DNA from: Acinetobacter sp. C26M
Lineage (GTDB): Bacteria; Pseudomonadota; Gammaproteobacteria; Pseudomonadales; Moraxellaceae
DNA: 64,000 bases
Assembly: GCF_023702675.1 (NCBI RefSeq)
Contig: NZ_CP098478.1
Coordinates: 2,480,001-2,544,000, forward strand
Direction: 5' to 3'
The notes beneath the pieces were generated by a model that saw nothing but the letters and a program-made list of their open reading frames with translations, had not been told where the DNA came from and made no database searches. Shown in pieces: positions 51,892 to 64,000 of the stretch. Position numbers and translations under genes: made by a program. Within the stretch, counting starts at the first letter, position 1. Each line of letters begins with the position of its first letter.

Positions 51892-52623
51892 TCAGTTAGC
51901 ACTTCTTATTAATACCTCAAACAATAAGCTCCATCCATCAATTAAAAGGAATAGTAATAATTTTATTGGTAAGGATATCGTTATTGGTGGAACCATGATC
52001 ATGCCTAAAGACATCAAAATAGAAGCAACAATAATATCGATTACTAAAAAAGGAAGTAAGATAACGAAACCAATTTGAAAAGCTATTTTTAATTCACTTA
52101 ACATGAAAGCTGGTATTAATTTAATTGGTGTAATACTAGCACTATCAACAGGCAAAGATGTCTTTGATAACTCATAAATCAACTTGATATCAGATTGATG
52201 TGTCTGAGTAATCATAAAATTTTTCAGAGGTTCCCAAGCCTTAATAAAAAAATCTTGTATTGTAATTTTATTCTCTAAATATGGCTGAAATGCAACCTGA
52301 TTAATGACTTCAAATGTGGGCCCCATAACAATCATTACTAAAAAAAAAGAAAGTAAAATAAGTACAATATTTGGTGGAGTCTGTTGTAGGCCTAATGCTT
52401 GTCGCATAATTGACAAGACTATTACATTTCTAACAAATGTCGTCGTTGCTATCAAAATTAACGGTATTAGACTTAATACCGTTAAAGAAACAAATGTTGA
52501 CGTTGGATTCAACATACTCATGATATTGCTTTGTTGTGGCTGCTCTATTGCTGCAAAGCAATTAAAGCTAATACTTACGCTAAACAAAGCGATCAAGATT
52601 TTAATGAATGTTTTATGGCTCAT
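51892..52623 (-). CDS. fliP: Flagellar type III export gate protein FliP
   Basis: A 243-residue membrane protein: cleavable signal peptide (about residues 1-25, ending CFA), four membrane segments, and family motifs RNVIVLSIMRQALGLQQTPP, VMGPTF and PFLVIDIIVAS with SLGMIMVPP. FliP forms the core of the export channel with FliQ and FliR. The start at 52623 overlaps fliO by 11 bases; the upstream frame is fliO in another phase. It is the last gene of the operon: fliQ, fliR and flhB do not follow. Confidence 0.93.
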   Translation of the reverse strand: MSHKTFIKILIALFSVSISFNCFAAIEQPQQSNIMSMLNPTSTFVSLTVLSLIPLILIATTTFVRNVIVLSIMRQALGLQQTPPNIVLILLSFFLVMIVMGPTFEVINQVAFQPYLENKITIQDFFIKAWEPLKNFMITQTHQSDIKLIYELSKTSLPVDSASITPIKLIPAFMLSELKIAFQIGFVILLPFLVIDIIVASILMSLGMIMVPPITISLPIKLLLFLLIDGWSLLFEVLIRSAN

Positions 52624-52933
52624 TACAACTTTGCCTATCACTAGATAGTTCACTACCATTACACTTCGGTATATGTGTAACGGAAACATTCTGACTTGAC
52701 TCAACTACAACTAGGTCATAATCATTTTTATCAATAATATATAAAGTAACTTTAGAGGACAGCCTAATTATTTTATATTCCTCAACATTTTTTAGTTGTC
52801 GAGAAAATTTAGAAATAAGATTCTTTTTAAAAAAAAATAATATAAAATAAGCCGCTATCAATAAAACTACAGTGATACCTAAAGTATAAAAAATATACCC
52901 AGAAGAAATTAACTCATCTTGCTTAAAATTCAT
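52613..52933 (-). CDS. fliO: FliO-like flagellar membrane protein
   Basis: A 106-residue protein with one membrane segment (about residues 12-35, YTLGITVVLLIAAYFILFFF) and a small cytoplasmic beta-domain, the layout of FliO, which helps assemble FliP. Sequence conservation is low in this family, so the call rests on topology and its place between fliN and fliP. Confidence 0.8.
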   Translation of the reverse strand: MNFKQDELISSGYIFYTLGITVVLLIAAYFILFFFKKNLISKFSRQLKNVEEYKIIRLSSKVTLYIIDKNDYDLVVVESSQNVSVTHIPKCNGSELSSDRQSCNEP

Positions 52934-52936
52934 TTT

Positions 52937-53251
52937 TTAAGCACTATGTTGATTTAATTGTGTAATTTGGAATCCAAGTACATCATCCACAGCGACTAAT
53001 TTACCATATCCAACTAAATGATCTTTTAAGTACAATTTTAAAGGTTCATCAATAGATTGATCCAACTTAACTAGACTACCTTGTTTTAAACTTAATAACT
53101 CACCAATTGTTAGTTTTGCTGAACCGACCTCCACTATAAGCTCAACTTCAACTTGTTCTACAACTGCTAGCTTATCAATTAAATTGGGAGAATTGCTATC
53201 AATAGCTTCCCGCAAACTTGGTAAATTAATTTCATTGATTTGAGTAGTCAC
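52937..53251 (-). CDS. fliN: Flagellar C-ring protein FliN
   Basis: A 104-residue SpoA-domain protein: VEVELIVEVGSAKLTIGELL, GSLVKLDQSIDEPLKLY and LVGYGKLVAVDDVLGFQI follow FliN closely. It forms the lower C-ring and docks the FliH/FliI export complex. It overlaps the end of fliM by four bases. Confidence 0.9.
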   Translation of the reverse strand: MTTQINEINLPSLREAIDSNSPNLIDKLAVVEQVEVELIVEVGSAKLTIGELLSLKQGSLVKLDQSIDEPLKLYLKDHLVGYGKLVAVDDVLGFQITQLNQHSA

Positions 53252-53994
53252 TTTTTAATCTCATGATTCGATGTTAATAGAATTGCTCGGTGATTTTCTG
53301 TTTGACCCAAAGCGGCTAAAGCAATTTGATTATCCCTACAAAATACGCTAAAAGGTTGAGCAATACGATGATTTGATTTAATAACGTCACCAACTTGTAT
53401 ATCAACAAAATCTGAAACAGATAATTTATCTAATATAAATTTAGTTTGTATGACTACAACTTCACTATCAAAAGATTTTTGAGATAAAGAAGTTTTGGAT
53501 AAGCTTATTTCATCCTTATTATTCAGAAACCCAGAATCCAATAATAATTTAAAGCTTTTTGTACCTAATCGAACATAAGCAATAATTGGAGTACCGCAAA
53601 AGACAACATCATTCATCGCAACTAGATTACTACCAAATTCTTTTAAACCACTATTAGTATAAAACTTAGCAAGTAAATCTCTTTTAGCCCTCTCGATTAA
53701 GAATGCAGTTACACTATCATTAGGAACTATATTCTTAATATTTTCAAACAATATATTAATCCAGATATCATTATCATTTTTTAGAAAACCGACAATAGGT
53801 TTATTATCATCTAAACAATAAAAATCAAAATTTAATAACTCATGAGAAGCATCAGAGCATTCCTCAAGCTGTATATCTGGTACAATATCTGAACTTATCC
53901 ATTCCTCATACCACTTAATCATTGATCGACTAATAATTGCTATTAGTTGGCTTTTTTCTTTTTTCGTAAGAAAACCTAAACCATATTTCATCAA
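53248..53994 (-). CDS. fliM: Short, divergent FliM (C-ring) protein
   Basis: A 248-residue protein; FliM is usually about 330. The C-terminal SpoA domain is clear (SVSDFVDIQVGDVIKSNHR, then NQIALAALGQTENHRAILL). The N-terminus (MMKYGLGFLTKKEKSQ) lacks the SQDEIDALL CheY-binding motif, and the middle CheC-like domain is poorly conserved. In these respects it is nearer to SctQ of non-flagellar type III systems, but it sits directly after flgE and before fliN. It would hold FliN without classical switching. Confidence 0.7.
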   Translation of the reverse strand: MMKYGLGFLTKKEKSQLIAIISRSMIKWYEEWISSDIVPDIQLEECSDASHELLNFDFYCLDDNKPIVGFLKNDNDIWINILFENIKNIVPNDSVTAFLIERAKRDLLAKFYTNSGLKEFGSNLVAMNDVVFCGTPIIAYVRLGTKSFKLLLDSGFLNNKDEISLSKTSLSQKSFDSEVVVIQTKFILDKLSVSDFVDIQVGDVIKSNHRIAQPFSVFCRDNQIALAALGQTENHRAILLTSNHEIKK

Positions 53995-55149
53995 CTATCC
54001 ACCGCGAGAAGAATTATAAAGTTGTTCTAACATTTCATTCGCAACATTCATAACCCGTGAACTCGCTTGGTAGCCCCTTTGAATGATCAGAATATTACCA
54101 AATTCTTGGGCTAAGTCGATATTCGCAAGCTCAATATACCCACCTTGTATTTTTCCAAAATATCCAGAATCAGGCTTACTATAACTAACTTTGACACTTT
54201 CTGGTTTATGTAATAAGGCATTTTGATCTTGACTGAGTTTTGTCTCATCAGAAAAACTTGCTAAACCAACAGCCTGAGTTGTTTTTTTCTTTTGACCATT
54301 GTTATAACTTATTTCTAAAATACCGTCTTCGCCAAAACTATAACCGACAATCCCCGCTCTTGGACCACCATCAGTTGCATTGGCTTGTATGCTACTACTT
54401 CCTGCGGAAACAACACTAATTCCCCCTATATCAAGCTTTAAATTTTGCTTACCTTCATCAAAATTTAATTCGATATCGAGGAACTGGTCGAGTACCGTAC
54501 CCGCTAAAGTAAAATTAATTACGCCAGTATTTAGTGTTTTATTTTTTTCATCAATAATTGTATAAGACCATTTACTGCCTACCGCTGAATTATTTGATTG
54601 TTTTTCAAAATTGATCGATAACTTACGCAATGTTCCTGTAGCATCATAAATATTTACATTACTTAACTTATAAGGTGCTGTTTCAGCTGAACTCAGAGTA
54701 CCGTTTATGTCTAGTGTAGTTGTTTGTGTAGGCGGCAAAGACTGATAATTCTTTATGTTTATCACTTCCAGTTTGTTACCATTAAACCCCATAACATTAT
54801 ACATACCAGATTGATCGACTAAATCACCTTTCTCATCAAATTTAAATTGGCCAGCACGCGTATAGAAAATTTCTTGTTTAGAATCCTTTAATATAAAATA
54901 GCCTTTACCATTAATATATAAGTCAGTTTGATTACCGGTTTGTTTTGAATCACCATTTTTTGTACGTGTTCCAGTACCTTGATAACTGACTCCAAGACCA
55001 TTACCATTATTACTTTCAACATCTTTTAAAAAACTATCTTTCCCCTTATAGCCTGGGGTGTTCATATTACTAATATTTTGCGAAACATTATTCAGCTGAG
55101 TAGAAAATGCAATTAAACCACTTACACCATTAAAATGTGCCTGTGTCAT
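53995..55149 (-). CDS. flgE: Flagellar hook protein FlgE
   Basis: A 384-residue hook subunit. The N-terminal rod-like helix (GVSGLIAFSTQLNNVSQNISN and TPGYK) and the C-terminal helix (IDLAQEFGNILIIQRGYQAS, then VMNVANEMLEQLYN) are the D0 parts conserved in all hook and rod proteins; a central TLDINGTLSS segment is the usual hook domain. It lies five bases after flgD, its cap, and the stop abuts fliM. A hook gene means the operon encodes more than an export pore. Confidence 0.92.
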   Translation of the reverse strand: MTQAHFNGVSGLIAFSTQLNNVSQNISNMNTPGYKGKDSFLKDVESNNGNGLGVSYQGTGTRTKNGDSKQTGNQTDLYINGKGYFILKDSKQEIFYTRAGQFKFDEKGDLVDQSGMYNVMGFNGNKLEVINIKNYQSLPPTQTTTLDINGTLSSAETAPYKLSNVNIYDATGTLRKLSINFEKQSNNSAVGSKWSYTIIDEKNKTLNTGVINFTLAGTVLDQFLDIELNFDEGKQNLKLDIGGISVVSAGSSSIQANATDGGPRAGIVGYSFGEDGILEISYNNGQKKKTTQAVGLASFSDETKLSQDQNALLHKPESVKVSYSKPDSGYFGKIQGGYIELANIDLAQEFGNILIIQRGYQASSRVMNVANEMLEQLYNSSRGG

Positions 55150-55154
55150 TTTTA

Positions 55155-55568
55155 TTACCTTACTGTTTTAATTTGAGATAATTTAATATTAGTCAGAAAG
55201 CTACCATCAGCTTGCTTTATATTTATTAAAGAACCATCTGGAGAAAAATTAACTGCAGACACTGTACCTGTCACATTCGTGCCGCTATCAGTTACAATTT
55301 CTACTTGCTTTCCAATAATTCCCAGTGACTGCAAAGTGGCATTAATAGAAACCAAATTACTAATGTTTTCGTTTGTGAGCCTAGCTTGTTCTAAATTGGT
55401 AAATTGAGCCATTTGAGCAAGGAACTCTCTATTATTGATCGGTTCTAATGGATCCTGAAATGTTAACTCCGTCATAAATAGCTTAATAAAATCATTTTGG
55501 CTTAAATTACTTCTGCTCACTTCACTAGCAGCAGAACCTAAACTATTCCCGAGAGCATCTATAGCCAT
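55155..55568 (-). CDS. flgD: Hook-cap protein FlgD (short form)
   Basis: A 137-residue protein with the core FlgD motif FIKLFMTELTFQDPLEPINN followed by REFLAQMAQFTNLEQ. It is much shorter than the about 230 residues of enterobacterial FlgD: the C-terminal part is a single small beta-domain, as in some other bacteria. The start at 55568 is chosen over one 13 codons earlier that overlaps the previous gene. Confidence 0.88.
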   Translation of the reverse strand: MAIDALGNSLGSAASEVSRSNLSQNDFIKLFMTELTFQDPLEPINNREFLAQMAQFTNLEQARLTNENISNLVSINATLQSLGIIGKQVEIVTDSGTNVTGTVSAVNFSPDGSLINIKQADGSFLTNIKLSQIKTVR

Positions 55569-55578
55569 GTGAATTCCA

Positions 55579-56226
55579 CTAAGTTTTGGACCAGACCATT
55601 TTACCATTCAACCATATTCTATCAATACTATCGGGCAATTGTCTTTTAATATTTTCCAACAAATCATGCTGATTGCCATGAAAATCTCTAACAAATAGTT
55701 CTGATTTAGTAATTAATATATGTTTTTTTAAAACTTCAGATGGAATACATGTGAGCACTCTAGACTCTGTCGGCAAGTCTATTGAAAAATTCTGATCAAT
55801 TTTAGAATTACTTTTAGGAAAAAAGTCAAAATATTGCTTATTGTTTTCTATTTTTCCATCTTTGGTGATCAGTTGTTCTGCTTTGTTTTCTAAAGTTACT
55901 CCATAATTTTTCAGACATTCGATTGTCAATAAGTAATCTGGCACCTCAAACTGAATATTTCTTACATGATCCAAATAGGATAAATGATTTGTAGCAATGC
56001 TTTTCAATTCATACAATTCGACAAAATCATTCATTTTTGAACTCTGATGTTTAAAATCCTTTTTTATCAATACATTTTTTCCATCAATTTCTTTGATATC
56101 TTTTTGTTTTATATCATTTAAAAAACTTCCCCCAGTATTGGACTCTTGCTTTTTAAACTTATTCTCAAGTTCTTCTTTATTATCGTAAACAGTCCTAGCA
56201 AGATGATCTACTTTGATGTTTTCCAT
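55579..56226 (-). CDS. Unknown protein at the hook-length-control (fliK) position
   Basis: A 215-residue protein of no recognised family. It is hydrophilic and lysine-rich for about 75 residues, then more ordered, ending RQLPDSIDRIWLNGKMVW. Its place between fliJ and flgD is the usual place of fliK, and FliK proteins diverge fast, but the conserved FliK C-terminal motif is not evident. A divergent hook-length ruler is the best guess; it could also be a novel factor. Confidence 0.5.
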   Translation of the reverse strand: MENIKVDHLARTVYDNKEELENKFKKQESNTGGSFLNDIKQKDIKEIDGKNVLIKKDFKHQSSKMNDFVELYELKSIATNHLSYLDHVRNIQFEVPDYLLTIECLKNYGVTLENKAEQLITKDGKIENNKQYFDFFPKSNSKIDQNFSIDLPTESRVLTCIPSEVLKKHILITKSELFVRDFHGNQHDLLENIKRQLPDSIDRIWLNGKMVWSKT

Positions 56227-56232
56227 GTCAGT

Positions 56233-56637
56233 TTACTCACCTAAATTATTCTGAAGTTCAAAAAAATGATGCTCCTTGATAATATCATTCAAATGATCAA
56301 TCTTTCTTTTCTGCAATACTAATAGATGCATTTTTTCGTGAAGCTCTTTTTTGAGCTCCTCACTAATATTTTGATTTGATATAAATTCATTATATTTCAC
56401 ATCAATTACAATCAGACCATCATCATATGTTTTGTTCCCTAACGAAAAGCCAAAAGAACTCTGTAGTTCAGAAATATCTTTTACTACGGACAAATATTCT
56501 TTCCTACTTTTTTCGGCCGAATCTTCAGCTTTCTGGCTTTTCACTTTTAAAATATTTACTTCATTCTGTAAAACCATATATTGAAACTTAAAGTAGCTCG
56601 CTACTGATTTTTTTTTCTTTAAAAAATCAATTACCAT
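56233..56637 (-). CDS. fliJ: FliJ-like export chaperone stalk
   Basis: A 134-residue protein made almost wholly of two long helices in a coiled-coil hairpin (KKKSVASYFKFQYMVLQNEV, later LKKELHEKMHLLVLQKRKID). FliJ links the FliI hexamer to FlhA. Sequence is weakly conserved; the call rests on the helical layout and its place directly after fliI. Confidence 0.8.
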   Translation of the reverse strand: MVIDFLKKKKSVASYFKFQYMVLQNEVNILKVKSQKAEDSAEKSRKEYLSVVKDISELQSSFGFSLGNKTYDDGLIVIDVKYNEFISNQNISEELKKELHEKMHLLVLQKRKIDHLNDIIKEHHFFELQNNLGE

Positions 56638-56639
56638 GT

Positions 56640-57986
56640 TTATTCATCCACAGTATCAATTTCACCTATAATATTTTTTGCACTTACCCAAATATTTTCA
56701 CTCATCATAATTTCACTTTCGAATTGAACTAGCATAGCATCGATTTTTGGCTTATTTTTTATAATACTATCTAACAATCTATTTTGCCCAGTTTGATAAG
56801 CTCCAAGCTGAATCATATCAGAGAACTCTTCATATACAGCCAAATACTGTTTAAGTTGGCTAATTACATTTTTCTGTTCCTTGGTGTGTAATACATTTGA
56901 AAGACGACTAATACTTTTTAATACATTTATAGAAGGAAAATGTCCTTTATCCGCTAAAGCACGATCTAGCATAATGTGTCCATCTAATATCGATCGCATA
57001 TGATCTGATATGGGTTCATTATAGTCATCACCTTCAACAAGGATGGTATAAATCGCCGTAATGGCACCTTGCCCTATCAATGCTCCTCCTCTCTCAACTA
57101 ATGGCGGAAGCTGCGAAAAGACTGAAGCAGGATATCCTCTTAAGCCTGTTGGCTCTGAAGCAGCTAAACCAATTTCTCGTTGTGCATAAGCAAATCTTGT
57201 AATCGAATCCATAACCAATAAGACATTAAAGCCTTTAGCTCTATACCAATCAGCCACTGTTGTAGCTGTATATGCGATGAATCTTCGAAAAACAGCTGGC
57301 TGCTCTGCTGTAGCAACATAAACAATGGATCTTTTTAATCCCTTTTCTCCCAAAACATTTGAAAGAAAATCTGTTACTTCACGCCCTCTTTCTCCAATTA
57401 GAGCAACAACAATGACATCAGCAGTGGCATACTTACATAACATACCTAATAAAGTACTTTTACCAACACCACTACCAGCAAAAATTCCAATACGTTGCCC
57501 AATCCCAATCGGCGTAAATAAATCTATTGCTTTTATACCAGTATTTAATTTTTGTGTGATAGGTGTACGTTGCAATGGATTAATTGGTGTTAGGTTTTTT
57601 GACAAATATTCAATAGATTCTGGTAGCTTTTTCCCATCAATAGGTTGACCTAACGCATCAAAAACTCTTCCACGAAGATCTAGACTCACCGGAATTTGAA
57701 TAGATTTAGCAGAAGAGACAACTTTGCAATCTAAGCTAAGTCCATGAATATCACCAAAAGGCATTAATGTAAAGAAGCTATCATTTACAGAAATCACTTC
57801 AGCAAACATCTCAACAGAATTGTCATTACTAATAATAAGAACAACCTCGCCGATACTTACATTTAAACCAGTTGCCTCAATACTTACACCACTAATTTCC
57901 TTAATTCTACCAATAAGCTGGCTAAAGGAAGATACTTCGAGTTTTTTCAAAATTGAACTAACAATATCATCCACATGACTAGTCAT
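56640..57986 (-). CDS. fliI: Flagellar export ATPase FliI
   Basis: A 448-residue ATPase with Walker A in GIFAGSGVGKSTLL near residue 170, Walker B VLLVMDSITRFAYAQRE near 250, and GEPPTxxGYP-type region ASEPTGLRGYPASVFSQLP. It unfolds and delivers export substrates. Its N-terminus overlaps fliH by eight bases; it is followed by fliJ three bases away. Confidence 0.95.
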   Translation of the reverse strand: MTSHVDDIVSSILKKLEVSSFSQLIGRIKEISGVSIEATGLNVSIGEVVLIISNDNSVEMFAEVISVNDSFFTLMPFGDIHGLSLDCKVVSSAKSIQIPVSLDLRGRVFDALGQPIDGKKLPESIEYLSKNLTPINPLQRTPITQKLNTGIKAIDLFTPIGIGQRIGIFAGSGVGKSTLLGMLCKYATADVIVVALIGERGREVTDFLSNVLGEKGLKRSIVYVATAEQPAVFRRFIAYTATTVADWYRAKGFNVLLVMDSITRFAYAQREIGLAASEPTGLRGYPASVFSQLPPLVERGGALIGQGAITAIYTILVEGDDYNEPISDHMRSILDGHIMLDRALADKGHFPSINVLKSISRLSNVLHTKEQKNVISQLKQYLAVYEEFSDMIQLGAYQTGQNRLLDSIIKNKPKIDAMLVQFESEIMMSENIWVSAKNIIGEIDTVDE

Positions 57987-58692
57987 TTAATAATTGCCTA
58001 ACACTATTAATTTGTTGACTAAAGCTAATATCAACAATAGAACTATTTAGCTCAATAAGAACTTGACCTACATTCAAACTGCTATCCTTAGAAACTTGAA
58101 CAGAATAATCATTTAAAACATCATTCTCATCAACAATTCTTTTGATCATGTCAAAATCTGTTAAAGATACTTTTAAAGTAAACCCTTGATCTAAACGATG
58201 CTGATAAATCGCTTTTTTTATAAGTTCAATAATAACCTGCTCATGCCCAGATAAACTAAAAACCATTTTCTCCAGGATACTATCTATAACTTTTATCGAA
58301 ATTTTTTCAATTGAAGTATTTATTTTTTTTAGACTTCGATCAAACTCAGTTATACAATTATTTAAAGTATCTATCTTTTCTTTGAACCGATTTTCTAATA
58401 ATTCTAGTTGTTGATCATGGAGCCTTTTTAACTTCAATTTCTCAACTTCGAGTGATTTTTTATATTCAAGCTCATACTGCTCTCTTAAATAAGCCACATC
58501 CTTTTCAATCAAACTATCTTTTTTACTTTCTTTAGATAAGTTCTCTTGTACATGGTCAGTATTTAGTAAAGTAGAAGACTGCTCTTGTTCAGATAGGATA
58601 TTCTCTGCTGACACATATCCTAACGTAACAGTATCTGCACTCTTATGTATTGCCCTTAATAATCCAGAAGATTCTTTATTTTTCATACTCAT
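57979..58692 (-). CDS. fliH: FliH-like regulator of the export ATPase
   Basis: About 237 residues: a variable N-terminal third, a long coiled coil (YLREQYELEYKKSLEVEKLK onward) and a C-terminal FliH domain (VIDSILEKMVFSLSGHEQVI). It tethers FliI to the C-ring protein FliN. The ATG at 58692 has GAGAGGG six bases upstream and is chosen over 58707; it overlaps the end of the preceding gene by 17 bases. Confidence 0.85.
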   Translation of the reverse strand: MSMKNKESSGLLRAIHKSADTVTLGYVSAENILSEQEQSSTLLNTDHVQENLSKESKKDSLIEKDVAYLREQYELEYKKSLEVEKLKLKRLHDQQLELLENRFKEKIDTLNNCITEFDRSLKKINTSIEKISIKVIDSILEKMVFSLSGHEQVIIELIKKAIYQHRLDQGFTLKVSLTDFDMIKRIVDENDVLNDYSVQVSKDSSLNVGQVLIELNSSIVDISFSQQINSVRQLLND

Positions 58693-59110
58693 GAACAACC
58701 CTCTCATAGAAATACATATCTAAAGTGGCCTGCATTTGGGGTGCCAATACAGCATCTTTGAGATCTTTTCTATAACGGACAAACTCTTCAAAATAAGCAG
58801 GCTTTTTAGCTAAAGAGACATCAGACAATAATTTATTGCTAACTAAAACATACCAGAATGGAGATATATTACCTACTAGTCTATCTAGGAGCTCCAAAGA
58901 TAAATCCTTACTCTTCAAATCATAATCCACTACTTCATCGATAATGACTGAGTTTATCCCAAGACCAAGTGCATCAATCTGGACCAGTAATTCATCCAAT
59001 CTTTGTCTTTCAGACATAGATAAGCTTGTCTTAATTTTTTCCTGTTCGTGCCTACTTAAGCTATAAAACTTTAGTACCCAACTTCGTAAAGTTGATTCAT
59101 TTAAATCCAT
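58676..59110 (-). CDS. Unknown protein occupying the fliG position
   Basis: A 144-residue, mostly helical protein between fliF and fliH, where fliG (about 330 residues) is expected. FliG hallmarks (the EHPQ motif, the charged rotor helix, the armadillo repeats) are not seen. The N-terminal half has a repeated pattern LSRHEQEKIKTSLSMSERQR then LLVQIDALGLGIN. In non-flagellar type III systems this slot holds the SctK protein, also helical and poorly conserved, so an SctK-like link between FliF and the C-ring is possible. It overlaps fliF by 14 bases. Confidence 0.6.
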   Translation of the reverse strand: MDLNESTLRSWVLKFYSLSRHEQEKIKTSLSMSERQRLDELLVQIDALGLGINSVIIDEVVDYDLKSKDLSLELLDRLVGNISPFWYVLVSNKLLSDVSLAKKPAYFEEFVRYRKDLKDAVLAPQMQATLDMYFYERVVHEYEK

Positions 59111-60446
59111 CTTTACCTAACCAATATTTTAAATTTACGATAACCTGCTCGCGTTCTTCTTCAGATAAAGAAATTTGATCAATCTCTGGTCTTAAATTTT
59201 TTTTCCTTCCAATTACTTTAAAGCTTATGAATATAAGGATCAAAAACAAAGAAACGATCAAAGCAATATAAAAAGGACTCAAAAACGAAGAATTAGGCGG
59301 TGCAACAATATTATTTGGAACATCAGTTGGCTGTATCTGCTCAGGTTTAAGCTCTGTAGGTTCAGGTTCAAGCATACTACTTACAAGTACGAGGTTGTCA
59401 CCACGCTTTTTATCAATACCCAACCCAACTTCTAGTACTTGTTGAATATTTTGCAGCTGCACAAAACTTAATGTGCTAGGCACAACAATGCCAACACTTA
59501 TCTTACTAATTTTACCAGCAGCATATTCGATCTCAGAAGTTTCCTTCCCTACAGCATACTCATTATCTTTGCTATTATCTTTCTGCGAAGTACTAACATT
59601 TCCGCCATTTAAAGTAGTAGAAGATGACTCTTTTTTATTTAAAAATAGAATTCCAGCATCAGAAAGTATTGGCTTTTCACTAGTAACTTTTCTCTTATCA
59701 AAATTCACTTGTACATTGGCAGAAACGCTGACTTTACTAATATTAAAAGATTGAAATAATATACTTCTCACTTTAGCTTCAATTTTTGACTCTACATCTT
59801 CAGATCGCTTAAATGCACTAGCGGAATTGTTTAAATTATTACTGACAATTTCTCCACTGCCATTCAATAACACTACGCTTTTAGATTCTAAGCCACTCAC
59901 TGCTGAGGAAACTAAATTTTGAATGCCTTCAACAGTATCTTTATTCAATTGATAGCTATTTTTGGTTTCAATAACAACAGATGCTTTAGCCGTTGCTTTA
60001 TCTACTTCATATATCGTATCTTTTTCAGGCGTGAGATGCACACGTGCATACTTTATACCTTCCATAGACATAATAGATCTAGCTAGCTCTCCTTCCAATG
60101 CGCGCTGAAAATTAATTTTCTGTGCAAAATCTGACATCCCATAATCAGTCTCATTAAAGAGCTCAAATCCAACTGTCTCAGGGTTACTTAAGCCACCTTT
60201 ATCTAGTGCAATCTTTGCATCGCCAACTTTACCTTCCTCGACTTCAACAATATTGTTCTTAATTGAGTAAGGAATATTCGAAGCATCTAATATATTGATT
60301 ACACTTGCTTGAATATCCTTATTTTCCTGTTGTAGCAAAGGTACATAAGTTGGCTTTAAAAACCACCAACATGCGCCAATGAATCCAAGAATTACAATAA
60401 TAATTCCACTTATAAAAAAAGCAGACTTTCTACCCCAAAAATTCAT
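59097..60446 (-). CDS. fliF: Flagellar MS-ring protein FliF
   Basis: A 449-residue membrane protein: N-terminal membrane segment (AFFISGIIIVILGFIGACWW), ring-building domains with GLSNPETVGFELFNETDYG, FQRALEGELARSI and VHLTPEKDTIYE, and a second membrane segment near the C-terminus. It is shorter than enteric FliF (about 550). The cytoplasmic tail, which normally binds FliG, is short but present and ends YWLGKDGFK. The start at 60446 follows GAGAAAG; a TTG frame opens earlier inside fliE. Confidence 0.93.
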   Translation of the reverse strand: MNFWGRKSAFFISGIIIVILGFIGACWWFLKPTYVPLLQQENKDIQASVINILDASNIPYSIKNNIVEVEEGKVGDAKIALDKGGLSNPETVGFELFNETDYGMSDFAQKINFQRALEGELARSIMSMEGIKYARVHLTPEKDTIYEVDKATAKASVVIETKNSYQLNKDTVEGIQNLVSSAVSGLESKSVVLLNGSGEIVSNNLNNSASAFKRSEDVESKIEAKVRSILFQSFNISKVSVSANVQVNFDKRKVTSEKPILSDAGILFLNKKESSSTTLNGGNVSTSQKDNSKDNEYAVGKETSEIEYAAGKISKISVGIVVPSTLSFVQLQNIQQVLEVGLGIDKKRGDNLVLVSSMLEPEPTELKPEQIQPTDVPNNIVAPPNSSFLSPFYIALIVSLFLILIFISFKVIGRKKNLRPEIDQISLSEEEREQVIVNLKYWLGKDGFK

Positions 60447-60471
60447 TCTTTCTCTTACTCTAACTAGCTGC

Positions 60472-60768
60472 TTAGATTTGCATACGTGTAATTTCTTGAT
60501 AACTCTCAACTAGCTTATTTCTAACTTGAACAGCGAATTGAAATGACAACTTTGCATTTTGCATGGATACCATGACATCATGTACAGGTATATTTTCTCC
60601 AGCAGCATACTTCATCGCTTTCTCAGTTGCACTTTTATACAACTCATCATTACGATTAAGCATGTCTAAAAAACTGATGTCTTTTGTTGCTGTTGATAGA
60701 TTTGATTTAGTATCTAACTTTGGCAACTTTATAGTCGGGTCAAAATTTATTGCATCTAGAGTGTGCAT
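60472..60768 (-). CDS. fliE: FliE, MS-ring to rod junction protein
   Basis: A 98-residue protein with the FliE C-terminal signature GENIPVHDVMVSMQNAKLSF, then FAVQVRNKLVESYQEITRMQ. It joins the MS-ring to the rod and is the first substrate of the export gate. It starts four bases after flgC, as is usual. Confidence 0.93.
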   Translation of the reverse strand: MHTLDAINFDPTIKLPKLDTKSNLSTATKDISFLDMLNRNDELYKSATEKAMKYAAGENIPVHDVMVSMQNAKLSFQFAVQVRNKLVESYQEITRMQI

Positions 60769-60772
60769 CTAG

Positions 60773-61174
60773 TTATTTTCCAATTTCATAAGCCTTAGCT
60801 GTCATATCTTTAATACTATTAAAAATACGAATATTGGCATCATATGCTCTGCTCGCAGAAACTAATGTTGCCATCTCTGTTGCTGTATTAATTTCAGGAT
60901 AAAATACCATTCCCTTACTATCTGCTAATGGGTGGTTAGGCTCATAAGCACTTCTCGTTTTAAAATTTGCCACATTATCCAAATACACATTGTTCTTTAT
61001 ATCATTAAGAAAATTGGGATGTGTCTTAACTTGTAGAACAGAGCTCGCATCTTTATGAGGTAAAGCCACATTTGCAATAGCAATATTATAACTTGCTGCT
61101 TCTACTCTAGCCTTTTCATGTTTTAAACCAAAAGCAATTACATCTTGAATCGACATATTCGTTGAAAGTTGCAT
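60773..61174 (-). CDS. flgC: Proximal rod protein FlgC
   Basis: A 133-residue rod subunit: N-terminal helix with RVEAASYNIAIANV and C-terminal helix with EMATLVSASRAYDANIRIFN as in FlgC. Its ATG shares one base with the flgB stop (TAATG), so the two are translationally coupled. Confidence 0.92.
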   Translation of the reverse strand: MQLSTNMSIQDVIAFGLKHEKARVEAASYNIAIANVALPHKDASSVLQVKTHPNFLNDIKNNVYLDNVANFKTRSAYEPNHPLADSKGMVFYPEINTATEMATLVSASRAYDANIRIFNSIKDMTAKAYEIGK

Positions 61175-61518
61175 TAGAACTCTTTCCCCTGTATAGCTAA
61201 TTGCATCAAGCCATAACTCCTGTTGAGCATTTCTGCAATCCCTTGATAACGACCGCTCGCAGTAACTGCTTCAAATGTCTGTTCATCAAGTTTGATTGAA
61301 CTCAGAGGAATATTACTTTGGTATTTGCTCATGCTAATTTGATTATAAGCTAAGTTTTGTAAGGATACATCTTTCATCAAATGCTTATAATCAAAAAACA
61401 CCCCTTTACTGCCAGGTACATTAAGATTTGCTACATTCATAGATGCGACTTTTACACGCATGTCTTGTATATTCATCGCATTTACAAGAGTTTGACTAAT
61501 ACTTACAATATCATTCAT
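61174..61518 (-). CDS. flgB: Proximal rod protein FlgB
   Basis: A 114-residue rod subunit with the N-terminal VASMNVANLNVPG and C-terminal YQGIAEMLNRSYGLMQLAI. Slightly shorter than the enteric protein (138). Located between flgI and flgC. Confidence 0.88.
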   Translation of the reverse strand: MNDIVSISQTLVNAMNIQDMRVKVASMNVANLNVPGSKGVFFDYKHLMKDVSLQNLAYNQISMSKYQSNIPLSSIKLDEQTFEAVTASGRYQGIAEMLNRSYGLMQLAIQGKEF

Positions 61519-61530
61519 GGAACATATTTC

Positions 61531-62634
61531 CTATTGAATTACTAAGTCAGCATTTAAAGCACCTGCATCTTTAATTGCTTGAATAATGGTGATGATATCT
61601 CTTGTACTTAAACGAATTTTTTGTAATGTCTGAACTAAACTTGCAACTGTTGCACCTTTAGGTAGCGATACAAAGTTTGCAGTATTTTCAGTCACTTTCA
61701 AATCAGTTTGAGGAACTACTTCTGTTGAAATATTATTATTGTAATTACGACCAATAAACGTAGGTTGTGAAACTAGATACTCAGTATCCACTTTTACATT
61801 TAAATTTCCTTGTGAAATATTAACTTCACTAATTCGTACATTTGCTCCTGCCACAATCGTCCCGGTTTTTTCATTAATCACAATTTTTGCAATCTGATCA
61901 GGTTCCACCTCGAGACGCTCAATACTTGCAATCAAATTAGGAATTTGTACATATGGACTAACAGAAATCTCTACTTTACCTGCATGTATAACTCGAACAT
62001 TTGCACCTTGTTTAGAAATTACTTGGGCAATCCGATTTGCAGTCGTGTAATCTGGTTGGTTTAAAACAAGTACTAATTTATCTTGTGGAATATTACTCTC
62101 AACAGCTTTTTCCAAATATGCACCTTTAGGAATACGCCCCACTGTAGAATGATTTTTCTGGGCTGCATTTCCGTTTACTTCAAATGAATATCCTCCCACA
62201 ACCAGTGGACCTTGTGCTAAAGCATATAATTTATTATCTGGCCCATAAAGAGGGGTTAAAATTAAAGTTCCACCTAGTAAACTTCTCGCATCACCAATCG
62301 AAGAAACCTCAACGTCAAATTTATCTCCAACCTCACTAAATGGAGGCATTTTTGCAGTGATCATGACTGCTGCTGTATTTCTAGAATTAAGATCTCTCTC
62401 ATTTATATTCACATTGAAATGCTTTAAGGTATTTACTAAAGCTTGTCTCGTCGTACTATTCCGATCTGAATCACCACTGCGAGACAAACCAACAACAAGC
62501 CCATAACCAATTAACGCATGCTCTCGGTCATCTTGAATACGAACTAAGTCTTTCAATCTCACCATATTTCCTGCCGCAATAGCAGATGGATTTAAAAAAA
62601 GTAAACCTATTAATCCAATCAATAGTTTTTTCAT
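61531..62634 (-). CDS. flgI: P-ring protein FlgI
   Basis: A 367-residue periplasmic protein with signal peptide (about residues 1-20, ending AIAA). RLKDLVRIQDDREHALIGYG and GLVVGLSRSGD, ARSLLGGTLILTPLYGPD, and GTIVAGANVRISEV are conserved. It forms the bushing in the peptidoglycan layer. The ATG at 62634 overlaps the flgH stop (ATGA). Confidence 0.95.
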   Translation of the reverse strand: MKKLLIGLIGLLFLNPSAIAAGNMVRLKDLVRIQDDREHALIGYGLVVGLSRSGDSDRNSTTRQALVNTLKHFNVNINERDLNSRNTAAVMITAKMPPFSEVGDKFDVEVSSIGDARSLLGGTLILTPLYGPDNKLYALAQGPLVVGGYSFEVNGNAAQKNHSTVGRIPKGAYLEKAVESNIPQDKLVLVLNQPDYTTANRIAQVISKQGANVRVIHAGKVEISVSPYVQIPNLIASIERLEVEPDQIAKIVINEKTGTIVAGANVRISEVNISQGNLNVKVDTEYLVSQPTFIGRNYNNNISTEVVPQTDLKVTENTANFVSLPKGATVASLVQTLQKIRLSTRDIITIIQAIKDAGALNADLVIQ

Positions 62635-63203
62635 ATTATTCTTAACCAATGAAAAAGCTTATAAAAAATACTAAGTTTTTGAGCGTCATCAGCAACACCT
62701 TTACCATTTATTTTAATCTTTGCATCAGCTAAACGATATGAGTAAACAGTATTATCATAACTAATATCATCTGGTCTAATAAAACCACTTATTTGAATAA
62801 GTTGCTTATCGTTATTAATAATGGCTTCTTGACTCCCCTCAACCCTCAAATACCCGTTAGGAAGCTTTTCTTTGACTTGTACGGAAACAACAGTTTTCAA
62901 TTGACCTTGTCTAGATGTATTACCTTCTCCACTCGCACCACCTTCTAGACCTAAACCAGCATCTGCTTTAGCAGTCAAGGTACTTGCTGAAAAAGATAAA
63001 TTCGTTTTATTCTTTGCATTCGTTCCAACAGATGATTTTGCGGATGTAGACTCCGCCACTAAAATAGTCAAGATATCGCCAATATTTACTGCTCGTCTAT
63101 CACTCGTTAAAGCTTGATAATTATCAGTATTAATCAAACTAGTTTGAGCTAATGTATGACTCGTCAATAAAACGCATACAATTAAAAGAGTTTTATTAAT
63201 CAA
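62631..63203 (-). CDS. flgH: L-ring protein FlgH lacking a lipobox
   Basis: A 190-residue outer-membrane ring protein: DRRAVNIGDILTILVAESTS, then AKSSVGTNAKNKT and GYLRVEGSQEAIINNDKQ, ISGFIRPDDIS, are conserved FlgH motifs. FlgH is normally a lipoprotein, but here the signal sequence ends SHTLAQ with no cysteine near the cleavage site (the only Cys is residue 10, inside the hydrophobic core). It is therefore probably cut by signal peptidase I and not lipid-anchored. Confidence 0.93.
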   Translation of the reverse strand: MINKTLLIVCVLLTSHTLAQTSLINTDNYQALTSDRRAVNIGDILTILVAESTSAKSSVGTNAKNKTNLSFSASTLTAKADAGLGLEGGASGEGNTSRQGQLKTVVSVQVKEKLPNGYLRVEGSQEAIINNDKQLIQISGFIRPDDISYDNTVYSYRLADAKIKINGKGVADDAQKLSIFYKLFHWLRII

Positions 63204-63879
63204 TTCTAACCGTTCCTTTTTTAATAACAGTAGTTCTTACAAGTTGATTATTACTCAGTAAGCGTACATTAACTTTATCTAAATATTGCCCGAATTGTTG
63301 AGCAACCCCAATCGTTTCGATCGTAATTCCATCTGAAACAGCCAAAACCCGAACCTGCTGATCTTTATAGATCCAAGGAGTTTCTTTCAAATGTCGCTTT
63401 AAAACAGGCTCATTTAACTTTACAGATTGGGTTAACCAAAAATTTTCATTAAATGGACCTACGGCAAGCGCAGTATTATTAACTCTTTCTTTGATAACAT
63501 CAATCTCTTGATATTCAACTAAAACACTATCAAGAGACTGATTACGGCTCGCATTTTGTTTAAAAACCCAAGCCATTTTCTTAATTTCAGGTCGAAACCA
63601 CATAACCTTAATTTTATTACCCATTGTTAATGGATCACAATCTAAAACTTCAAAACCAACTCTAGGCTGATAAATAGAAGAGACTAACTTCAATTTCGAA
63701 TACCGATGATCTGAAGCAGCAAATAAAGGAAATAATCTAGAAGTACTTTCTTTTTCAAGCTGCTCCTGTACTAAATTATTTGCCATATCAACAAACTGCT
63801 GGTGAGTCAGGCCTTCACATGCGTTAACTTGTATTTGCACTAATGGCACAATACATATCATCAATACTATTAAACGCAT
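63196..63879 (-). CDS. flgA: P-ring assembly chaperone FlgA
   Basis: A 227-residue periplasmic protein: signal peptide (about residues 1-20, ending VNA), a first domain with a disulfide-like pair (CEG and LDCDP), and a C-terminal SAF-like domain (VLKRHLKETPWIYKDQQVRV and VRLLSNNQLVRTTVIKKGTV). It helps FlgI fold into the P-ring. It overlaps flgH by eight bases. Confidence 0.88.
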   Translation of the reverse strand: MRLIVLMICIVPLVQIQVNACEGLTHQQFVDMANNLVQEQLEKESTSRLFPLFAASDHRYSKLKLVSSIYQPRVGFEVLDCDPLTMGNKIKVMWFRPEIKKMAWVFKQNASRNQSLDSVLVEYQEIDVIKERVNNTALAVGPFNENFWLTQSVKLNEPVLKRHLKETPWIYKDQQVRVLAVSDGITIETIGVAQQFGQYLDKVNVRLLSNNQLVRTTVIKKGTVRID

Positions 63880-63880
63880 A

Positions 63881-64000
63881 TTAGCGTCTTAAGTTATTAA
63901 TCGTTTCCATAATCTGATCTCCAGCTTGCAACACTCTTGCATTTAACTGGTATGCCCTTTGTGCCATGATTAGATTTGATATTTCACTGACCAAATCTAC
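63881..64000 (-). CDS. flgG: C-terminal end of distal rod protein FlgG (partial)
   Basis: The last 39 codons of a rod/hook-family gene that continues past the window. VDLVSEISNLIMAQRAYQLN and VLQAGDQIMETINNLRR is the conserved C-terminal helix. Its position directly before flgA favours FlgG over FlgF. The stop TAA (63881-63883) is one base from the flgA start, so this gene is co-transcribed with it. Confidence 0.8.
   Translation of the reverse strand, partial: VDLVSEISNLIMAQRAYQLNARVLQAGDQIMETINNLRR

Follow-up and report, generated by a model that had tools for sequence, protein, structure and literature searches.

Gene content of the locus

The region considered here is a stretch of 64,000 nucleotides (the window) spanning positions 2480001-2544000 of the single-contig chromosome of Acinetobacter sp. 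C26M (3,933,697 bases; completeness 100%), and its right-hand end carries an operon of flagellar type. Between window positions 51892 and 63879, the list of open reading frames (ORFs) holds 18 complete minus-strand genes of this type, from fliP to flgA, followed from 63881 by a partial flgG (Table 1). An earlier note on the window had described nineteen contiguous minus-strand flagellar genes in this order, and the description stands: 14 of the 18 complete genes reach the Pfam gathering score (FliP, FliN, FliM, FlgE, FlgD, FliI, FliH, FliF, FliE, FlgC, FlgB, FlgI, FlgH and FlgA), as does FlgG, with FliM and FliN recognised through FliMN_C. The remaining four, for which Pfam gives no accepted match, owe their names to their position (fliO, fliJ, the fliK-position gene and gene X).

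To the right of the window, where the note had proposed to look for further flagellar genes, flgG is followed on the same strand by flgF, flhA, flhB, fliR and fliQ; flhB, fliR and fliQ were identified by homology to annotated genes. Genes for the export gate, rod, rings and hook of a flagellum are all present. Past fliQ, the opposite strand carries two genes, TPR1 and TPR2 (395 and 220 amino acids, aa), and past these the minus strand again encodes a 178-aa SUKH immunity protein and a 5193-aa YD-repeat (Rhs) protein, the block ending at genome position 2567785. Linked giant Rhs proteins bearing a distinctive N-terminal leader are the key feature of the system and lie outside the window. The G+C content of the operon is 33.0%, against 40.5% for window positions 1-51700, as expected of an acquired island.

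Several components of a swimming flagellum are missing from the complete C26M genome. Searches with Flagellin_N (PF00669), MotB_plug (PF13677) and FliG_C (PF01706) gave no match there; of 14 genomes used as controls, four were positive in each search. The genome encodes four Flg_bbr_C proteins, all in the operon (FlgC, FlgE, FlgF and FlgG), so that FlgK is absent as well. The system is therefore not a swimming flagellum of known type. The fliC, flgK and MotB genes that the note had suggested seeking were thus not found in the whole genome; of its two proposals, an undescribed flagellum or a secretion apparatus derived from one, the first loses its support through these absences and the second is well supported.

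Scores against NCBIfam equivalog families place FlhA, FliI and FliN below the flagellar and injectisome cut-offs alike. FlhA scores 745.5 against a flagellar cut-off of 772.1, FliI 510.9 against 619.1 and FliN 69.6 against 84.05; the corresponding injectisome values are 602.1 against 692.25 for SctV and 470.6 against 604.75 for SctN. FliM lies far under its flagellar cut-off (27.2 against 219.6) and has no injectisome match in NCBIfam. No secretin was matched by Pfam in a search confined to 20 proteins of the cluster.

The operon appears not to be in decay. The overall ratio of non-synonymous to synonymous substitution rates (dN/dS) between C26M and a second Acinetobacter genome, G110, is 0.096 over 25 genes, with fliO left out of the count; the least constrained genes are fliM (0.37) and the fliK-position gene (0.33). 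The genes that encode the gate, ATPase, rings, rod, hook and hook cap all remain intact, and purifying selection acts on them.

Gene X, which occupies the position of fliG, matches FliG neither in Pfam nor in NCBIfam nor among solved structures (PDB), where its best E value is not better than 0.3, and its identification as a recognisable FliG found no support. Its product could be a reduced form of FliG or else a platform protein of a new kind; the C-terminus of FliF presumably resembles a FliG-binding tail.

Table 1. Flagellar-type genes at the right-hand end of the window.
Gene	Position	Strand	Evidence
fliP, export gate	51892..52704	-	PF00813 226.9 bits
fliO-position gene, 106 aa	52613..52933	-	position; iterated profile seeded with fliO matches an ORF in 15/17 clusters including C26M
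fliN, C-ring / sorting platform	52937..53251	-	PF01052 71.6 bits; under NCBIfam FliN and SctQ cut-offs
fliM-like, 248 aa	53248..53994	-	FliMN_C 33.8 bits; under NCBIfam FliM cut-off
flgE, hook	53995..55149	-	PF22692, PF06429, PF00460, PF07559
flgD, hook cap	55155..55607	-	PF03963 63 bits
fliK-position gene (Y in the earlier note), fast evolving	55579..56226	-	no accepted family match; profile match in 6/17 clusters
fliJ-position gene, 134 aa	56233..56637	-	position only; profile matches only C26M and G110
fliI, export ATPase	56640..57986	-	PF00006 272.2 bits, PF18269; passes fliI_yscN subfamily cut-off, under FliI and SctN equivalog cut-offs
fliH	57979..58707	-	PF02108 44.9 bits
gene X, 144 aa, fliG position	58676..59110	-	no accepted family match; profile match in 15/17 clusters including C26M
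fliF, MS ring	59097..60509	-	PF01514 159.4 bits, PF08345
fliE	60472..60768	-	PF02049 77.6 bits
flgC, rod	60773..61174	-	PF06429 29.9 bits
flgB, rod	61174..61518	-	PF00460 25.5 bits
flgI, P ring	61531..62649	-	PF02119 376.6 bits
flgH, L ring	62631..63203	-	PF02107 153.5 bits
flgA, P-ring chaperone	63196..63879	-	PF13144 53.5 bits
flgG, end in window	63881..64000 (L002:13882-14637)	-	PF06429 67.2 bits

Giant proteins with a shared leader

The 5193-aa protein has the hallmarks of a polymorphic toxin: YD/RHS repeats (PF05593, 527.1 bits), a C-terminal DNA/RNA non-specific endonuclease domain (PF13930, 94.1 bits) and a neighbouring immunity gene, the 178-aa gene with SUKH matches above cut-off. At E 0.01, RHS_repeat is the only match in its first 4095 residues, with no PAAR/VgrG-type N-terminus, and PAAR is likewise absent from the domain list of protein P0007. 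Judged by sequence, the giant Rhs proteins of this system appear to have no evident signal peptide and no PAAR domain. A second C26M leader protein (5309 aa; genome position 1080780, L112/L113), unlinked to the operon, carries a DUF3990 tip. The two proteins are 78% identical over their first 3286 residues and their tip families differ, which points to a conserved body with exchanged tips. Two small ORFs lie downstream of the 5309-aa gene and, by eye, a fimbrial-looking gene cluster lies beside it.

When the first 110 residues of nine leaders are aligned, 14 columns are invariant, 13 of which fall in residues 1-71. In the order and Pseudomonas-like genome sets described below, generic Rhs genes match the leader profile only from column 28 on, so that its first part is special; the second half presumably resembles general Rhs openings. 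The leader is common to bodies as unlike as Rhs and a 'tandem-95 repeat' protein, the latter a 12,948-aa product encoded on the Undibacterium sp. YM2 plasmid NZ_AP018442.1 (L072:4284-43130), and the system may therefore export giant proteins that are not Rhs proteins.

In 11 of the 18 clusters examined, the flanking sequence that was fetched includes a leader gene (two further contigs, of G440 and G312, were too short to be counted). The linked proteins comprise 5193 aa in C26M, 5353 in G110, 7599 in G421, 6428 in G467, 4085 in G645, 4897 in Burkholderia ubonensis and 12,948 in Undibacterium, with ORFs of 8836 aa in G214 and 6200 aa in Variovorax; those of G156 and G1005 are cut by contig ends. 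Two genomes (G588, G773) have a leaderless Rhs fragment on the cluster contig and a leader gene elsewhere in the genome, and five (G299, G219, G301, G276, G288) have no leader gene in the fetched stretch and one elsewhere. The region downstream of the 6428-aa cargo gene in G467 (L076:3869-12640) contains a 1220-aa Rhs-like ORF together with a number of small ORFs, a layout like that of loci that hold immunity genes and orphan toxin tips.

Distribution of the apparatus

The survey of Acinetobacter that the earlier note had called for took in 149 species genomes sampled from the genus. Three had a match to the FlhA family at E 0.001, and it passed the cut-off in two, C26M and G110, the latter a metagenome-assembled 'uncultured Acinetobacter sp.' that is 64% complete. 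G110 holds the whole block, from the Rhs gene through the TPR genes to fliP, with matched flagellar proteins 63-97% identical to those of C26M and with flanks that differ from the fetched flanks of C26M. This recurrence, together with the one-contig, complete genome, leaves no sign of the assembly join near 51.8 kb that the note had considered. Its assignment of the host to the genus also holds, close relatives bearing Acinetobacter names. Among 5.8 billion proteins, 7964 FlhA relatives were found at E 1e-100, and the best 120 of these were considered: 35 are 76-91% identical, the named ones belonging to Acinetobacter (including A. pittii and A. calcoaceticus) and one 'bacterium SPL81', and the other 85 are 58-60% identical, the named ones belonging to Pseudomonas except for one metagenome-assembled genome labelled Acinetobacter sp.

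The system also extends beyond the genus, to Pseudomonas and to further families within the order. A set of 390 genomes from the order contains 13 whose FlhA reaches at least 575 bits, the next best scoring 487 bits. Gene order is the same in clusters from 11 of these 13, as far as contigs extend; the G440 and G312 clusters are short fragments, and that of G261 is not among the 11 fetched. Over their last 600 residues, the FlhA proteins of G773 and G645 are identical to ones that bear the names Pseudomonas sp. GM48 and P. uvaldensis. The same gene order is found on three plasmids from Burkholderiales: pMSMB2035 of B. ubonensis, typed as conjugative, pUYM01 of Undibacterium sp. YM2 and a plasmid of Variovorax sp. 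PDNC026. On pUYM01, flgI is annotated as two pieces and the FliH gene is displaced. A near copy on a plasmid or phage was not found: the best plasmid FlhA is 46.0% identical, and the best five of 10 phage FlhA records reach 31-38%. In G276 (C1, ~3973800-4004800; L077, L063), genes resembling those of an injectisome (SctU- and SctJ-like, by eye) adjoin the operon.

Iterated profiles were compared across 17 of 20 fetched clusters (G773, G440 and G312 left out). All 17 match FlhA, FlgF, FlgG, FlgA, FlgH, FlgI, FlgB, FlgC, FliE, FliF, FliH, FliI, FlgD, FlgE, FliM, FliN and FliP; FliQ, FliR and FlhB are matched in 16, the G588 stretch being cut there, and gene X, FliO, TPR1 and TPR2 in 15 each. FliJ is matched in two, divergent ORFs occupying its place elsewhere. 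In three rows the FliM and FliN profiles match one and the same ORF, which makes this part of the comparison softer. An FlhA tree, with long branches flagged, sets 25 rows from C26M-type clusters apart from 18 ordinary FlhA rows by a branch with 100/100 support; the ordinary rows comprise G906 and 17 of the top-scoring ordinary matches.

Co-occurrence of leader and apparatus

The leader profile matched 25 of the 390 order genomes, 13 at full length (best 74.6-144.9 bits) and the other 12 partially (22.7-32.1 bits). The 13 genomes with a full-length leader coincide one for one with the 13 that carry the distinctive FlhA, an overlap of probability 1.6e-24 under independence, a figure that ignores relatedness. 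In each of five genera (g1, g13, g39, g58 and g94), members with both stand beside members with neither, some of the latter being incomplete drafts. In 259 Pseudomonas-like genomes, leader (106-109 bits) and FlhA (854-871 bits, listed only at E <1e-150) occur in the same three, and three further genomes have partial leader matches of 22-24 bits. Eleven of 248 genomes of the class have a leader match. Those of C26M and G1005 reach at least 97 bits, with FlhA at 1477 and 714 bits, and leader scores of at least 55 bits and FlhA scores of at least 575 bits coincide in these same two. The third FlhA of the class set, in G906 (505 bits, 39%), groups with the ordinary rows. Five of the remaining leader matches are considered below; the other four begin only at column 13 or later. 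Among 72,556 plasmid records, the leader occurs in six, three of which have the operon; of the other three, one is from Undibacterium sp. KW1 and two are from Eleftheria terrae.

A probable secretion apparatus for giant proteins

The stripped set of flagellar genes goes with genes for giant toxin-like proteins, and is thus most likely a secretion machine for them. Gene content and co-occurrence suggest that the apparatus is probably a filament-less, motor-less, flagellum-derived type III secretion system for giant leader-bearing toxin-like proteins. The export gate and FliHI would engage the cargo leader (approximately its first 40-75 residues) as an export signal, with the two TPR proteins holding the cargo as chaperones; these have weak, sub-cut-off NCBIfam scores against the SycD and SctY chaperones. 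The cargo chain of ~4,000-13,000 aa would then be threaded unfolded through the rod, the P/L-ring bushing and the open hook to the exterior, where the YD repeats would fold into a shell or stalk presenting the variable C-terminal toxin to neighbouring cells, the immunity protein shielding the producer. FliM/FliN and gene X may form a static sorting platform rather than a rotor.

A switch from rod and hook to cargo substrates is plausible, since FlhB retains its NPTH cleavage motif. Twelve of 17 clusters include a linked sigma-like gene, which was not found in those of C26M, G110, G156, G288 and G1005. The sigma factor of B. ubonensis is FliA/WhiG-like, although under that cut-off, and a linked sigma factor may suggest hook-to-cargo gene timing. 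In a test for FliA (sigma-28) promoters, two of 14 cargo-upstream stretches (B. ubonensis and G1005) beat shuffles at 0.04 or better. Two representatives of the ~100-aa gene near TPR2, examined as FlgM candidates, gave no Pfam match.

A broader proposal, for which the chances seem evenly balanced, is that a distinct flagellar type III lineage in several families and on plasmids serves as a dedicated interbacterial contact weapon or surface display, threading polymorphic toxins and other giant proteins, ~4,000-13,000 residues long, through a hook that bears no filament, guided by a new N-terminal signal. The flagellum would then have been turned into a secretion machine a second time, in a form that stays much closer to it than injectisomes do. 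Flagellar co-option is usually argued from injectisomes, which have diverged far; here the machine would still be a hook-basal body, minus filament and motor, tied to a new class of cargo. It would also offer giant Rhs proteins that lack a known export signal a testable way out of the cell, and would imply that flagellar genes are not necessarily relics where a bacterium has no flagella.

Points against this interpretation and alternative explanations

Several observations weigh against the interpretation as an exporter of giant proteins. Conservation and linkage are observed; export, assembly and killing are inferred, and the cargo would be of extreme length for a type III substrate. The leader profile includes the leaders of five of the 13 order genomes, which match by construction, and some of the eight that contributed none are close relatives of the five. 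The fetched stretches of the f35 genomes have no leader gene. Leader proteins named A. baumannii were found as well. Five genomes of the class set (G877, G885, G959, G790 and G809) have giant proteins that are weakly leader-like (27-54 bits, from columns 3-5), with no FlhA at E 1e-148 and no apparatus genes in the stretches read. These divergent giant Rhs proteins (L146-L151), each preceded by an ORF of ~540-1250 aa, may be a related family using another export route. The leader genes on the KW1 and two Eleftheria terrae plasmids show 38.7-38.9% identity; the flagellar operon was not seen in the stretches read of these plasmids, their chromosomes being unsearched, and the plasmids are not among the best 60 of 473 FlhA records. 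The KW1 plasmid has one large gene annotated 'FliJ family protein', and an SMI1/KNR4 gene lies near the leader gene on this plasmid and on one from Eleftheria. On the former (NZ_AP018440.1, 58823-86297; L154, L157), the 24.7-kb leader gene, with a LysM annotation, is followed by HINT-type polymorphic toxin and SMI1/KNR4 genes.

It is conceivable, if unlikely, that the exporter is correctly identified but aimed at eukaryotes, for example amoebae, insects or plants, and not at competing bacteria. Eukaryotic cells are the targets of injectisomes, which belong to the same wider family, some hosts of the system presumably live with plants, and some tips could act on both kinds of target. However, a nuclease tip adjoining a SUKH immunity gene is a mark of bacterial competition, as are, by eye, the second Rhs-like ORF and small ORFs of G467.

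We consider it quite unlikely that the product of the apparatus is a hook-like surface appendage, or that its substrates are other proteins, with the giant Rhs proteins leaving by another route and their joint travel due to one mobile island or to shared regulation. Cargo and apparatus do lie side by side on an AT-rich block in C26M, and likewise with other flanks in G110, three plasmids hold leader genes without a detected operon, and export of the cargo by the apparatus is an inference. Yet full-score leader genes located away from the apparatus still occur only in apparatus-bearing genomes of the order and Pseudomonas-like sets, and Rhs and tandem-95 repeat bodies, different as they are, carry the same leader.

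An ordinary or decaying flagellum was rejected on the absences of flagellin, MotB, FliG_C and FlgK and on dN/dS. Acinetobacter is known for lacking flagella, and a remnant that had lost filament and motor would fit these absences and the divided flgI of pUYM01, but it is highly improbable given that all genes are open and constrained and that the same stripped gene set recurs, in one gene order, across many families with its own well-supported FlhA group; a true swimming flagellum whose filament and motor proteins escaped recognition, which the complete hook, rod, rings and gate might suggest, is equally hard to credit beside the three empty family searches.

Comparison with known systems

The C26M system has in common with the bacterial flagellum the gate, FliHI, FliF, rod, P/L rings, hook and hook cap, and differs from it in the filament, motor and hook-filament components not found and in the sub-cut-off FlhA, FliI, FliM and FliN. 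With injectisomes it would share dedicated secretion, a FliM/FliN-like platform and TPR proteins that are weakly SycD/SctY-like; unlike them it has the rod, hook and P/L rings of a flagellum, an FlhA under the SctV cut-off and, in the cluster proteins scanned, no secretin.

Rhs toxins delivered by the type VI secretion system, as described in part of PMC8636562, resemble the C26M cargo in their YD-repeat body, variable C-terminal toxin and adjacent immunity gene. The cargo described here differs in its short N-terminal leader, in the lack of PAAR in domain lists and in a presence that follows the flagellar apparatus. In the portion covered of the survey of polymorphic toxins by Zhang et al. 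2012 (PMC3482391), type III secretion is named in passing and assigned to one toxin class, and no flagellum-linked Rhs system was met. No report of a flagellum-type exporter of giant Rhs proteins was found in the open-licence literature, a scope outside which subscription papers, preprints and one relevant Lysobacter paper fall.

The second flagellum of Pseudomonas fluorescens F113 is likewise a second flagellar gene set on a Pseudomonas island, but, according to sections of its descriptions (PMC5031763, PMC3570484), it has fliC2 and flhDC, is Azotobacter-like and is produced as a tuft. The F113 type is the only additional flagellum mentioned in the sections covered of a paper on the P. corrugata subgroup (PMC8461476).

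The nearest known system is the flagellar type III secretion system (FT3SS) of the non-flagellated Lysobacter enzymogenes OH11, as far as its published description was available. In the parts of that description considered (PMC7277350, PMC9927559), the FT3SS resembles the C26M system in having neither a flagellin gene nor a FliG homologue, exports foreign flagellin, and loses this export in flhB or fliI mutants. Secretion of FlgD is reported (PMC9927559), native substrates are given as unidentified and the genes are tied to twitching (PMC7277350). The OH11 genes are said, in the same partial account, not to form an operon, whereas those of C26M do. Giant leader proteins were also found in Lysobacter capsici, a relative of L. 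enzymogenes.

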